The notes under the pieces: model-generated | The model's database searches: none | Seen by the model: only the letters and a program-made list of their open reading frames with translations | What the model was told of the DNA's origin: nothing | Origin: Spirochaetota bacterium | GTDB taxonomy: Bacteria > Spirochaetota > Brevinematia > Brevinematales > Brevinemataceae | Assembly (NCBI GenBank): GCA_030154445.1 | Contig: JAGUQW010000002.1 | Location: 186,001 to 250,000, forward strand | Direction of reading: 5' to 3' | DNA length: 64,000 nucleotides | Shown: positions 35,114 to 40,171 of the stretch, piece by piece | Layout of the letters: each line of letters begins with the position of its first letter | How positions within the stretch are numbered: the stretch's first letter is position 1 | Position numbers and translations under genes: made by a program

Positions 35114-36064
35114 ATGGTTTTTGGACACAGAATAGGATGGAGAATGTATCTATTTGTTTTGATTTTTATTACTAATATAATATTTACACAAGAATTAGTT
35201 AATGCTGAAAATAAGCAAACAAATAGTTATTTTTCCTTTCGTCATTATGATTCTGATAAGTATTATATAGCTTGGATGAATCCGCGCTCTTTTGTATCCC
35301 GTGCTTATATCAAACATAATTTTGATCTAAAATCTGCATTATTATATCGAAATCCTCAATCTGAAGTTGCTTGGAATTTTAATACTATCACGGCTGTATT
35401 AGAAGGACGGATCGCTACAGAAATTTATTTGTTCCGTACGCCTAAGTTTGCAATAGGTGTTGGTGCTGCATTTGAAGTACCTCTAATTATTCGTAAAAAA
35501 TTAGAATTGACAGAAAGTAAATTAAATATTCTTAATCTCTATAGTATTATAGGTCAAACAGCTGCTTTTATCGATGTGTATTTACCTTATGAGATGAAAT
35601 TGAGAATAATACCTGTTTTTCATGAATCTGTGCATATCGCTGATGGTTATGTAGGGAATTCAAAAGATTTTAGTTTTATTAGTTATGAATTTGTGGCTTT
35701 GGAGTTATATAGTAAAATAAAATGGGCAACATTGTATACAGGGATTGAAGTGACCTTTCATGCCTCTGCTGAGTCTGAACGTTTGTTACGAACTAGAGTG
35801 CATTTTGGAGCTGATCTTAGATATCCTATATGGAAAGATACAATTAGTGTTATTATGGGATTTAATATAGCAGCTTTATATGATGAAAAAAACACGAAAT
35901 TTCTAGAAACTAGCGGGTGGCATCCAGCTGTTAATTTTGGGATGGGTATAGAATTTGATAGAGTTATTACATCTTTTAAAATATCATATCAAAGAGGATT
36001 TGAGTCTGTTACTTATCAAACAATGCAAACAAGTTTGGGGATGGAAGTAACGGTATTATTTTAA
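35114..36064 (+). CDS. Putative outer-membrane beta-barrel protein
   Basis: 316 residues. The N-terminal hydrophobic signal (about residues 10-30, ending TQELVNA) is followed by alternating strands: SYFSFRHYDSDKYYIAWMNP, EIYLFRTPKFAIGVGAAFEV, MKLRIIPVFHES, LYTGIEVTFHASAESE and a final QTSLGMEVTVLF, with a terminal Phe as in many outer-membrane barrels. The pattern DSxxYYIAWMNPRSFVSRAY and the MKLRIIPVFHESVHIADGY block resemble DUF1207-like or spirochaetal exported proteins, but I cannot assign a family. GGAGA precedes the ATG. Probably monocistronic. Confidence 0.72.
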   Translation: MVFGHRIGWRMYLFVLIFITNIIFTQELVNAENKQTNSYFSFRHYDSDKYYIAWMNPRSFVSRAYIKHNFDLKSALLYRNPQSEVAWNFNTITAVLEGRIATEIYLFRTPKFAIGVGAAFEVPLIIRKKLELTESKLNILNLYSIIGQTAAFIDVYLPYEMKLRIIPVFHESVHIADGYVGNSKDFSFISYEFVALELYSKIKWATLYTGIEVTFHASAESERLLRTRVHFGADLRYPIWKDTISVIMGFNIAALYDEKNTKFLETSGWHPAVNFGMGIEFDRVITSFKISYQRGFESVTYQTMQTSLGMEVTVLF

Positions 36065-36183: not shown

Positions 36184-37479
36184 TTATGCTATGAATAAAA
36201 ATATTACAGACAGTATTCCTATAATCCATAATACAGGAGATATTTTTTTAAAATCATTATCAATAATATGCATAATAATATAAGAGATAAAACCAAAACT
36301 GAGGCCTATAACAATATTGTAAGATAGAGGCATAAGAACAATTGTCAAAAAACTTGGTATAGCGGTCTTCATGTTTGAAAAATCCATATGTACAATATTT
36401 TTGAACATATAAACTCCTACCATAACTAATGCAGGGGCTGCAATAAATAAAGGAACAATAGTTACAATAGGTGTGAAGAATAATGCTAAAATAAATAATA
36501 ATGCAGTTATTACAGAAGCAAAGCCTGTTTTGGCTCCAGCTGTAATTCCTACTGTAGATTCACTAAAGGTAGAAATAGTACTTGTTCCCATACAAGCACC
36601 TGCTAGTGTTGCGATAGAGTCAGCATAAAGCATTTGATTGATATTTTTGATACGGCCATCAGATTCTTCTAAACCCAACTGTTTGCAACATGCAATTACA
36701 AATGCTAAAGAGTTAAATAAATCGATGAATAGAAATGAAAAAATCGCACCAGCTAGAGACCATTTGAATGCACCTAAGATATCCAATTTCATAGCAATAG
36801 GAGCTATACTTGGGGGCAGAGATATAAATTTGGTAGGTACTTCAACTATACCTAAGATAATACCAATAACAGTAGTAATGATAATACTAAATAGCATCCC
36901 ACCTTGAACTTTTTTGACATCAAATAAAACCATTAAAAAAAGACAGAATAGAGAAAGAGCAACTTTCGGATTGAAATCTCCTAATGCTACTAGTGTAGCT
37001 GGATTAGCGACAATAATATTCATTCCTCTTAAACCAATAAAAGTAATAAACAAACCAATACCAATAGAAGCAGCTAAACTGATTGGAATAGGAATAGCAG
37101 AAGCAATTTGTTTTCTGATACCTGTTAGCGTTAGTAATAAATAGAAAAATCCTGATAAAAAAACTACTCCTAAGGCTATTTCCCAAGAAACCCCTTGTCC
37201 TTGAACAATGGAAAAAGCAAAAAAAGTATTTAATCCCATTGCAGGAGCCAAAACAATAGGTATATTTGCAAAGAAAGCAACTAATAAAGTCCCTATAGCA
37301 GTAGCAATACAAGTCACAGTGATGAGTGCATTTTTGTCCATACCTGTACTAGATAGAATAGAAGGGTTTACAAAAATAATATAAGACATTGCTACAAAAG
37401 TAGCTATACCACCTATGATTTCTTGTTTGATGGAGCTTTGTCGTTCTGATATTTTGAATATCTTTTCTAATATACTCAT
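36184..37479 (-). CDS. Purine permease, NCS2/AzgA-PbuG type (copy 1)
   Basis: Proton-coupled uptake of hypoxanthine, guanine or adenine. 431 residues with 12-14 helices. AzgA-type signatures: QEIIGGIATFVAMSYIIFVN, LAPAMGLNTFFAFSI (helix 3), SLAASIGIGLFITFIG, FLFIDLFNSLAFV and GTSTISTFSESTVGITAGAKTGFASVITALLF. It is close in sequence along its whole length to the permease at 38849. It lies 23 bp after xpt, so import and phosphoribosylation of the same base are co-expressed under one riboswitch. Confidence 0.93.
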   Translation of the reverse strand: MSILEKIFKISERQSSIKQEIIGGIATFVAMSYIIFVNPSILSSTGMDKNALITVTCIATAIGTLLVAFFANIPIVLAPAMGLNTFFAFSIVQGQGVSWEIALGVVFLSGFFYLLLTLTGIRKQIASAIPIPISLAASIGIGLFITFIGLRGMNIIVANPATLVALGDFNPKVALSLFCLFLMVLFDVKKVQGGMLFSIIITTVIGIILGIVEVPTKFISLPPSIAPIAMKLDILGAFKWSLAGAIFSFLFIDLFNSLAFVIACCKQLGLEESDGRIKNINQMLYADSIATLAGACMGTSTISTFSESTVGITAGAKTGFASVITALLFILALFFTPIVTIVPLFIAAPALVMVGVYMFKNIVHMDFSNMKTAIPSFLTIVLMPLSYNIVIGLSFGFISYIIMHIIDNDFKKISPVLWIIGILSVIFLFIA

Positions 37480-37502: not shown

Positions 37503-38078
37503 TTATTCTGTGATAAATTGAATGTTATGCGGTGGGGAAACACTTTTTAGACGAACAAGACTTTCTAAATGAATACCTTGATCTACAAGAGTTTGTCTAC
37601 CAGATTGGAAGCTTTTTTCGATAACAATACCGACACCAATACAATTGGCTTTACCCATAATAATGAGCTTTTGCATACCAAGAACAGCATGCCCCATAGC
37701 TAGAAAGTCATCAATAATGAGAATATTTTCATCTTTTTTGATATATTCTTTAGATACAAAAATATCATAATCTTTATTTTTTGTAAAAGAATATATTTTG
37801 GTATTGTAACCTTCTGCCATAGTAGAGGGAAGAGACTTTTTGGCAAATAATAAAGGTACATTCAACTCCAAAGCTACACCAAGAGCTGGTGCAATTCCAG
37901 AAGCTTCTAAAGTGAGAACTTTGTCTATTTTACTGTCTTTGAATCTCAGAGCAAGTTCTTTTCCTATTGCTAGCATTAATTGAGGATCGATAATATGATT
38001 GAGAAAATTATCAACTTTGAGAATTCCTTCTCTAGGAACAGTAGATAGTTCAAGAATTTTTTCTTGTAATAATAGCAT
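37503..38078 (-). CDS. xpt: Xanthine phosphoribosyltransferase
   Basis: Converts xanthine (and guanine more weakly) plus PRPP to the nucleotide. 191 residues. Signatures: the family-typical start MLLLQEKIL with VDNFLNHIIDPQLM, TLEASGIAPALGVA, and the PRPP loop ILIIDDFLAMGHAVLGM (about residue 118). A GGAGT ribosome site precedes the ATG. A purine riboswitch and a promoter with a dyad over its -10 box lie upstream. Together with guaB and guaA close by, this gives a complete xanthine-to-GMP route. Confidence 0.96.
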   Translation of the reverse strand: MLLLQEKILELSTVPREGILKVDNFLNHIIDPQLMLAIGKELALRFKDSKIDKVLTLEASGIAPALGVALELNVPLLFAKKSLPSTMAEGYNTKIYSFTKNKDYDIFVSKEYIKKDENILIIDDFLAMGHAVLGMQKLIIMGKANCIGVGIVIEKSFQSGRQTLVDQGIHLESLVRLKSVSPPHNIQFITE

Positions 38079-38189: not shown

Positions 38190-38266
38190 CTTTATATAAT
38201 CAAAGTAAAGCTTTTACGGAGCTTTGTAGAAACGCTTGTCCATATTACAAACATATAGGATTAAAT
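38190..38266 (-). ncRNA. Purine riboswitch of the xpt-permease operon (variant P1)
   Basis: Minus strand: P2 GTTTGT / ACAAGC with loop AATATGG, joining segment GTTTCTAC, P3 AAAGCT / AGCTTT with loop CCGTAAA. The two loops have the conserved GG and CC for loop-loop pairing. The 3' joining segment reads ACTTTG where ACTATG is usual; C74 (guanine-type) is kept. P1 pairs TAATC with GATTA but has two mismatches next to the binding core. No clear terminator follows. Confidence 0.8.
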
Positions 38267-38293
38267 ATCATTTATTTATTGTAAATGATATTT
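38263..38293. repeat. 12-bp-arm dyad over the xpt -10 box
   Basis: AAATATCATTTA / TAAATGATATTT with a 7-nt centre. It spans the TACAAT -10 element of the xpt promoter and the riboswitch 5' boundary, so it could be an operator. Confidence 0.6.
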
Positions 38294-38306
38294 AAGTATT
38301 TGTCAA
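38278..38306 (-). promoter_or_regulatory. Promoter of xpt operon
   Basis: TTGACA, 17 bp, TACAAT on the minus strand, just upstream of the riboswitch. Confidence 0.82.
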
Positions 38307-38331
38307 GAGTGATTTTGGTGATAAATAAATC

Positions 38332-38359
38332 TTGACAAATAAATTTTTATGGTTATAAT
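38332..38359 (+). promoter_or_regulatory. Promoter of the divergent purine permease unit
   Basis: TTGACA, 16 bp, TATAAT. Its -35 region (TCTTGACAAAT) is the exact reverse complement of the xpt -35 region (38298-38308), so the divergent promoters are mirror images. Confidence 0.82.
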
Positions 38360-38368
38360 AGGATTATA

Positions 38369-38442
38369 CTTTTATATATATCTGTAATACGGTCAGATGT
38401 TTCTACGACCCACCACAAATGGGACACTATAATAGTATAAAG
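38369..38442 (+). ncRNA. Purine riboswitch (guanine type) upstream of permease copy 2
   Basis: P2 TCTG / CAGA enclosing TAATACGGT, joining segment TGTTTCTACG, P3 CCC / GGG with loop ACCACAAAT, then ACACTATA. The loop GG and CC bases, the GTTTCTAC core and ACTAT with C74 all match the guanine/hypoxanthine class. P1 is AT-rich and imperfect (CTTTTATA / TATAAAG). No obvious terminator hairpin follows. Confidence 0.86.
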
Positions 38443-38526
38443 TTTTATCTTTCTTTTATTTCTAACAATATCCTCACTTTCTTAATGATTAATATATAAT
38501 ATTATATATTAAATTCATGTGATGTT

Positions 38527-38730
38527 ATGAAGGTCTTATATTTCTTAAGATCTATTTCAGGTAATTCTTTATCTATTTTGTGTGTCTGTATTTTGTCAAT
38601 TTTTATGGAAAGTGCATCTGTAGCACATGTAGTGATTATTAGAGCGATGAGTAATAGTACAAAAGGTGATGACAAAGAACAATATCTAAAATTCTTTAAA
38701 GAGGCTGTAAAAAATCAGCAAATGTTTTGA
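38527..38730 (+). CDS. Possible 67-residue secreted or membrane peptide
   Basis: The first reading frame behind the purine riboswitch and before permease copy 2. The N-terminal 35 residues form a plausible signal or anchor (basic MKVLYFLRS, then SLSILCVCILSIFMESASVA). A short charged tail (STKGDDKEQYLKFFKEAVKN) follows. The ribosome site is poor (GTGAT). No homologue recognised. It may be a real purine-controlled small protein, or the DNA may simply be a long permease leader; the two cannot be told apart by eye. Confidence 0.42.
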   Translation: MKVLYFLRSISGNSLSILCVCILSIFMESASVAHVVIIRAMSNSTKGDDKEQYLKFFKEAVKNQQMF

Positions 38731-38848: not shown

Positions 38849-40171
38849 ATGAAACAGAATAGCAATAATCAATTATTATTATCTATAGATAATTTCTTCA
38901 CTATCTCAAAAAGAAACAGTTCTTTTAAGCAAGAAATTATAGGAGGGGTAACAACTTTTTTAACAATGTCTTATATTATTTTTGTTAATCCTTCTATTTT
39001 ATCTTTAGCAGGGATGGACAAAGGAGCTTTGATCACGGTGACTTGTTTAGTTAGTGCTTTCGGCACTTTATTAATGGCTTTTATGGCTAATGTTCCTATG
39101 GCATTAGCTCCGGGAATGGGATTGAATGCATTTTTTACTTTCACATTAGTGTTAGGGCAGGGAGTACCATGGGAAGTGGCTTTAGGGGTGGTTTTTATTT
39201 CTGGATTGTTTTTTATGTTATTATCTCTTTCTGGAATTAGAAAAAGAATAGCTTCTACGATTCCCACTTCTTTGATCATAGCAGCTTCTGCGGGTATAGG
39301 TCTATTCATTACTTTTATAGGATTACAAAATATGAAACTTATTGTAGCAAATGAGGCAACATTAGTATCATTAGGTGAATTTACTGTTCCAACATTGTTA
39401 TCTTTATTTGGTCTTGTACTGATGATAGCGTTGGAAGTCACAAAAGTCAAAGGTAGTATTCTGATAGGTATAGTAGCTACTACAATTATGGGAATGATAT
39501 TTGGTGAAATACCGATTCCTAGTTCTTTTGTTTCTATGCCTCCAAGTATAGAACCTATAGCATTTAAACTTGATATTTTTGGGGCACTTAAATGGTCTTT
39601 AGCAAGTGTAATTTTTTCTTTTATGTTTATTGATATGTTTGATTCATTAGCGTTGCTCTTATCTTGTGCTAAACAAATTGGTATCAAAGAAAAAGATGGA
39701 GAGATTTTAGGGATTGGTAGGATGCTATATGCTGATGTTGGAGCAACATTAGTAGGATCTGTGTTGGGGACAAGTACTGTTACTTCTTTTGGAGAATCTG
39801 CAGCTGGTATGGCAGCAGGTGCTAAGACAGGTTTTGCGTCTGTGATTACAGCTATCTTATTTTTATTAGTATTATTTTTCACCCCTATTGTATCTATTGT
39901 TCCTGTATTTGCGGCAGCTCCAGCTCTTGTAATCGTAGGGGTGTATATGTTTAGATCTATTGTAGAGATTGATTTTTCTGATATAAAAATAGCAATACCC
40001 GCTTTTGTAATGATATTGTTGATGCCTCTTACTTATAGTATTAGTGTTGGATTAAGTTTTGGATTTTTAACATATATCTTAACGCATGCCATTGTTAAAG
40101 AATTTAATAAAATTTCACCAGCAATGTGGTTTGTAGGTTTATTATCTATCCTTCATTTTATTCTAGGATAA
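38849..40171 (+). CDS. Purine permease, NCS2/AzgA-PbuG type (copy 2)
   Basis: 440 residues, with the same architecture as the permease at 36184. Matching segments are QEIIGGVTTFLTMSYIIFVNP, LAPGMGLNAFFTFTL, SAGIGLFITFIG, FSFMFIDMFDSLALL and GTSTVTSFGESAAGMAAGAKTGF. Its own N-terminal extension is about 12 residues. AGGAGA precedes the ATG. It is controlled by the plus-strand purine riboswitch about 400 bases upstream. The duplicated permeases probably differ in preferred base (for example guanine/hypoxanthine versus xanthine), but that is an inference. Confidence 0.93.
   Translation: MKQNSNNQLLLSIDNFFTISKRNSSFKQEIIGGVTTFLTMSYIIFVNPSILSLAGMDKGALITVTCLVSAFGTLLMAFMANVPMALAPGMGLNAFFTFTLVLGQGVPWEVALGVVFISGLFFMLLSLSGIRKRIASTIPTSLIIAASAGIGLFITFIGLQNMKLIVANEATLVSLGEFTVPTLLSLFGLVLMIALEVTKVKGSILIGIVATTIMGMIFGEIPIPSSFVSMPPSIEPIAFKLDIFGALKWSLASVIFSFMFIDMFDSLALLLSCAKQIGIKEKDGEILGIGRMLYADVGATLVGSVLGTSTVTSFGESAAGMAAGAKTGFASVITAILFLLVLFFTPIVSIVPVFAAAPALVIVGVYMFRSIVEIDFSDIKIAIPAFVMILLMPLTYSISVGLSFGFLTYILTHAIVKEFNKISPAMWFVGLLSILHFILG

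Follow-up and report, generated by a model that had tools for sequence, protein, structure and literature searches.

Divergent guanine-type riboswitches upstream of sister purine permeases in a Brevinemataceae spirochaete

How do two purine riboswitches come to lie back to back between divergent purine salvage genes, with mirror-image −35 regions between them, and does this symmetry record the origin of the block? The question is raised by an intergenic region of Spirochaetota bacterium (Brevinemataceae), which we analysed within a window of 64,000 nucleotides (contig JAGUQW010000002.1, positions 186,001 to 250,000). We consider it very probable that the block holds two independent, divergent guanine riboswitches that belong to the ordinary RF00167 class and control one salvage unit each, that the permeases and aptamers are old, and that the mirrored −35 regions reflect promoter context. 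The aptamers, promoters, gene identities, conservation and paralogy are taken from the sequence itself. The minus-strand transcript carries xpt and permease A, and the plus-strand transcript leads to permease B:

36184 to 37479, minus strand: permease A, an AzgA-like NCS2 purine permease of 431 aa (PF00860, 130 bits; 62% identity to permease B)
37503 to 38078, minus strand: xpt, xanthine phosphoribosyltransferase, 191 aa (NF006671, 232 bits, cut-off 177)
38849 to 40171, plus strand: permease B, an AzgA-like NCS2 purine permease of 440 aa (PF00860, 155 bits; PDB relatives AZG1 and AZG2)

Among solved structures, those of the adenine/guanine permeases AZG1 and AZG2 are nearest to both permeases, and we therefore describe them as AzgA-like. 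The earlier note had called the two permeases paralogous, and in a protein tree they are indeed sisters (support 93/89), the pair being in turn sister to clostridial permeases. For comparison we used two further Brevinema genomes, G001 (79% complete) and G002 (a second species), and a genome from another genus of the family, G003; among named relatives, an uncultured Brevinema (L003) is nearest. Two of the four Brevinemataceae genomes gave no purL, and in the window genome (95.5% complete) neither purL nor purE was found, which suggests, for the two genes examined, that this organism depends on purine salvage. The same search found purL in G001 and G002, and purE was annotated by ORF in both.

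Comparison with Rfam places one purine riboswitch aptamer in front of each unit, against a curated gathering score of 37 bits for RF00167:

38280 to 38183, minus strand: guanine-type aptamer of the xpt-permease A operon (61.1 bits, E 3.8e-8; 95.7% identity to the G001 orthologue)
38352 to 38449, plus strand: guanine-type aptamer upstream of permease B (59.9 bits, E 7.7e-8; 80% identity to the G002 orthologue)

These are the only RF00167 matches in the whole 1.5 Mb genome, both precede genes of purine salvage or transport (xpt and the AzgA-type permeases), and both are real purine riboswitches beyond doubt. The earlier note had assigned a purine aptamer to each unit and proposed an RF00167 search, which is thus positive on both strands. 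A TPP riboswitch lies elsewhere in the window (17188-17087, minus strand; RF00059, 74.4 bits).

In the RF00167 alignments both aptamers keep the guanine core, with UUUCUAC in J2/3 and a C, the equivalent of C74, in J3/1; the ligand contacts described for this class are U22, U51 and C74 (PMC9295807). From this core we infer that guanine or hypoxanthine is the ligand of both riboswitches. The L2-L3 contact is formed by GG in L2 and CC in L3 in both aptamers, while the loops of the plus aptamer vary around these pairs (L2 AAUACGG, L3 CCACAAA), and its P1 is long with non-standard positions. The P1 of the minus aptamer is intact in its outer portion and has two mismatches, C.U and U.U, adjoining the ligand pocket, which are the same in G001 and correspond in our own mapping to A76 to U in xpt numbering. 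These mismatches may weaken or retune binding. Since they are conserved, and the usual pocket-side pair is lost in both species that carry the xpt aptamer, the xpt-side aptamer might be read as a retuned guanine riboswitch with a threshold or purine preference unlike that of its back-to-back partner, giving two set-points for two paralogous permeases, although we give this reading only a small chance.

Each aptamer lies just downstream of its own near-consensus sigma-70 promoter, as found by a promoter search:

38278 to 38306, minus strand: promoter of the xpt operon, TTGACA-17-TACAAT (11/12; TCTTGACAAA conserved in G001)
38332 to 38359, plus strand: promoter of the permease B transcript, TTGACA-16-TATAAT (12/12; TCTTGACA at the equivalent place in G002)
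38297 to 38341, no strand: imperfect inverted repeat over the two −35 regions and their flanks, with 19-nt arms at 38297-38315 and 38323-38341 (17/19)

Transcription is predicted to start at about 38271 on the minus strand and about 38363-38366 on the plus strand, upstream of both aptamers rather than inside them, in keeping with the layout that the earlier note had assumed. The riboswitches that it had termed facing are in fact divergent. Its statement that the −35 regions are exact inverted copies 21 bp apart holds for the 11-mers TCTTGACAAAT at 38298-38308 (minus) and 38330-38340 (plus).

How unusual is this mirror? The 11-mer TCTTGACAAAT occurs five times in the 1.5 Mb genome, and TTGACAAAT exceeds its expected frequency in the window (9 occurrences for 2.1 expected), in line with a favoured −35 context. 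Among 33 promoter-like sites drawn from the window and the relative loci, all five flanking bases agree in 1.3% of randomly drawn pairs, and we regard the mirror as modestly unusual. A mirrored −35 pair, AGTTTGTCAA-N10-TTGACAAACT, also occurs in G003 (L042 6915-6945), with a riboswitch-permease on one side and, on the other, an outer-membrane-like gene homologous (25% identity) to window positions 35114-36064.

If the imperfect palindrome of 45 bp that covers both −35 regions were an operator, a DNA-binding regulator would control both promoters in addition to the riboswitches. The repeat is centred between the promoters, and the pair in G003 would be a second case beside a riboswitch-permease, but the spacing between the hexamers varies by genome (25 bp here, 34 in G002, shorter in G003) and the arms boil down to TTGACA with A-rich flanks. 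Nor are mirrored pairs clearly enriched in the genome, where TTGTCA-N0-30-TGACAA is found at 8 places versus 5 for the reversed control. We therefore regard an operator as highly unlikely. A perfect 14-nt inverted repeat at 38261-38295, which spans the minus −10 box and predicted start, was also considered as an operator and rejected, as it is not conserved in G001. The −35 mirror is, we conclude, largely the promoter consensus shared by two strong promoters pointing apart.

The earlier note had suggested comparing the block in related genomes, and the head-to-head gene order is conserved in G002, with permease B on the minus strand and xpt-permease A on the plus strand. The sole aptamer that Rfam detects there is that of permease B; on the xpt side no purine aptamer is matched even at E 10. 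The xpt leader of G002 aligns colinearly with its counterparts in the window and G001, which bear the aptamer, but lacks the aptamer's middle. Its alignment score tops all but 0-0.1% of dinucleotide shuffles (p <= 0.001), while plain local alignment alone is weak (p 0.05-0.2), and the aptamer looks to have decayed by internal deletion. The stretch that matches those leaders on either side, with the middle of the aptamer gone, lies at L038 5150-5230 (plus strand).

In G001 the xpt aptamer is present with a different gene upstream, permease B was not found in the 79% of the genome that is covered, and a second permease piece resembles permease A. Two purine riboswitches lie apart in G003; a permease-xpt-guaA-like operon follows one of them and a further permease the other. 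A further purine riboswitch precedes purE in G001 and G002 (L037 8049-8149 and L039 89-189), and in G001 purL is likewise placed behind a riboswitch; no counterpart of the purE switch was found in the window genome. The most parsimonious reading is that the two riboswitches were already head to head in the ancestor of the Brevinema species. The xpt aptamers of the window and G001 share 95.7% identity, above the values for the promoter (76%), the remaining leader (79%) and third codon positions (66%); between the window and G002 the permease B aptamer is 80% identical, against 54% for the third positions of that gene. Judged by these identities, the aptamers are under selection.

The same identities bear on the origin of the block, which the earlier note had attributed to inverted duplication. 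Had promoter and aptamer been duplicated together in inverted form, the mirrored −35 regions would be the trace of that event, and both the exact 11-mer copies within their 17/19 imperfect arms and the sister relationship of the permeases would fit. Within the window, however, the xpt and permease B aptamers are about 60-62% identical to each other, compared with 95-97% and 80-81% to their respective orthologues, and the symmetry of the block ends at the −35 regions. In the relatives, moreover, TCTTGACA is found on single promoters. On the aptamer identities we reject a recent inverted duplication; the attribution is not supported, and we think it improbable that the whole control block arose in this way. 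Nor can the −35 letters be taken as a trace of duplication, since the TCTTGACAAA flank precedes xpt in G001 without a divergent partner, TCTTGACA precedes permease B in G002 opposite a −35 that reads TATTGACAAA, and G003 carries mirrored TTTGTCAA/TTGACAAA between its riboswitch-permease and the unrelated outer-membrane-like gene.

Permease and aptamer could have been duplicated together in inverted form at an ancient date, and the matching −35 letters cannot count as evidence for such an event. The permease duplication itself is old, preceding the split between the window species and G002, and could have been inverted in form. A 214-bp tandem duplication, considered from two equally spaced direct repeats, fitted no better than other offsets, and support in the aptamer tree is too weak to give the order of its deep branches. 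A purine riboswitch lies directly upstream at six clostridial permease loci, so that joint acquisition of permease and switch is possible. From the position of the pair in one moderately supported protein tree, the AzgA-type permease was probably acquired with its riboswitch from a Clostridia-like donor.

How the riboswitches act on their genes is less apparent from the leaders. No convincing hairpin with a U tract, as in an intrinsic terminator, follows either aptamer, whereas terminator hairpins are seen in compared leaders (−17.4 kcal/mol for the Romboutsia permease, −11.9 and −24.0 kcal/mol for the purE leaders). A perfect 24-nt AT-only palindrome in the plus leader (38489-38512) was rejected as a terminator, as no U tract follows it. 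Neither leader has a convincing or conserved helix that would sequester a Shine-Dalgarno (SD) sequence, for which the calculations were ambiguous. Both leaders contain much U and little G (5-9% G), a composition that would fit Rho-dependent control without proving it. The switching step may be Rho-dependent or translational, and OFF control by guanine or hypoxanthine is the most likely action by analogy. Coordinated but separable control of the two units, as the earlier note had suggested, would be reasonable given two aptamers, separate promoters and paralogous permeases.

On the plus side, a gene relic lies between the aptamer and permease B:

38527 to 38730, plus strand: 67-aa ORF that includes a degraded C-terminal fragment of an MTA/SAH nucleosidase gene (tblastn with the intact genomic mtn: 51% over 45 aa, 8-aa deletion, E 2.7e-6)

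An intact mtn is located elsewhere in the window genome (G000:C4, L071 985-1686), and the relic, which is absent from the G002 leader, explains the ORF better than a small riboswitch-controlled gene. The SD sequence of permease B lies about 400 nt past the aptamer, behind the relic, and it is therefore not certain that the plus riboswitch controls this gene. Translational control across about 400 nt is unlikely, so that either transcription would be controlled or the switch is partly uncoupled. Full uncoupling would mean that a nucleosidase gene came in between and then degenerated, so that the aptamer now precedes the relic and permease B is expressed from elsewhere. This would fit the aptamer-permease B distance of about 400 nt, against 114 nt in G002, with the mtn relic inside it, and the departure of L3 (CCACAAA) from the consensus CCGUAAA. 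However, aptamer and promoter are intact (59.9 bits, 12/12) and only weak promoter-like sites are seen nearer permease B, and we judge full uncoupling unlikely.

We return to two independent riboswitches, for which ligand, OFF polarity, switching step and transfer are our interpretation. Each would begin a few bases past its own sigma-70 promoter and, at high guanine or hypoxanthine, would lower expression of its own unit, xpt-permease A or permease B. An AzgA-type permease with its riboswitch would have come from a Clostridia-like donor and undergone duplication ahead of speciation within Brevinema. From then on, depending on the species, the head-to-head layout would have been retained, eroded or lost. 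The mirrored −35 regions would represent two strong promoters with the preferred −35 context of the genome, rather than the remains of a recent inverted duplication.

The riboswitch class is known and the layout is an uncommon but real feature. None of 97 purine riboswitches in clostridial-class genomes (51 of 148 genomes carry them) has a head-to-head partner within 1 kb, and no such pair was found in six further clostridial-type genomes. Searches of the literature outside subscription papers turned up no account of purine riboswitches placed head to head, and none of any Brevinema riboswitch. The arrangement is rare, yet it is as expected from an old duplicated transporter unit set head to head. 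The locus documents guanine riboswitches in Brevinemataceae, with a rare head-to-head pair on sister permeases, and comparison of the three Brevinema genomes suggests that one riboswitch is decaying by internal deletion while its gene and promoter persist. Should the two aptamers differ in affinity, they would form a small natural system in which paralogous transporters divide control by one metabolite.

Comparison with known systems indicates what is shared and what differs at this locus. Like the guanine (guanine-I) riboswitch of Bacillus subtilis xpt-pbuX, the aptamers have a three-way junction, the J2/3 and J3/1 core and a C that pairs with the ligand, and they are placed before xpt and purine permeases. 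Unlike that class, the window leaders have no recognisable intrinsic terminator, P1 of the xpt aptamer is mismatched at two positions next to the pocket, and the copies diverge, two from one intergenic block. The guanine riboswitch variants xanthine-II, guanine-II and 2'-dG use the same scaffold with changes or insertions in J2/3 or J3/1 (PMC9295807), whereas the window aptamers keep both junctions canonical. In other spirochaetes, two riboswitches (L043 5965-6033 and L044 6038-6106) score just over the 2dG-II cut-off (62.4 and 61.3 against 60), although their J2/3 reads GUUUCUAC as in guanine riboswitches, and are of uncertain ligand class.

The AzgA-type permease loci of Peptostreptococcaceae (Clostridioides difficile, Romboutsia and Terrisporobacter) resemble the window in having a permease about 61% identical and a purine riboswitch about 100-200 nt upstream, but they are single rather than head to head, and a strong terminator hairpin is present in at least the Romboutsia case. 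Tandem guanine riboswitches, of which a review lists seven doublets and one triplet, likewise bring guanine aptamers close together; the doublets discussed there lie on one transcript, and divergent pairs are not discussed (PMC9481103). Whereas the tandem aptamers act jointly, the window pair lies on opposite strands with separate promoters and would act separately.
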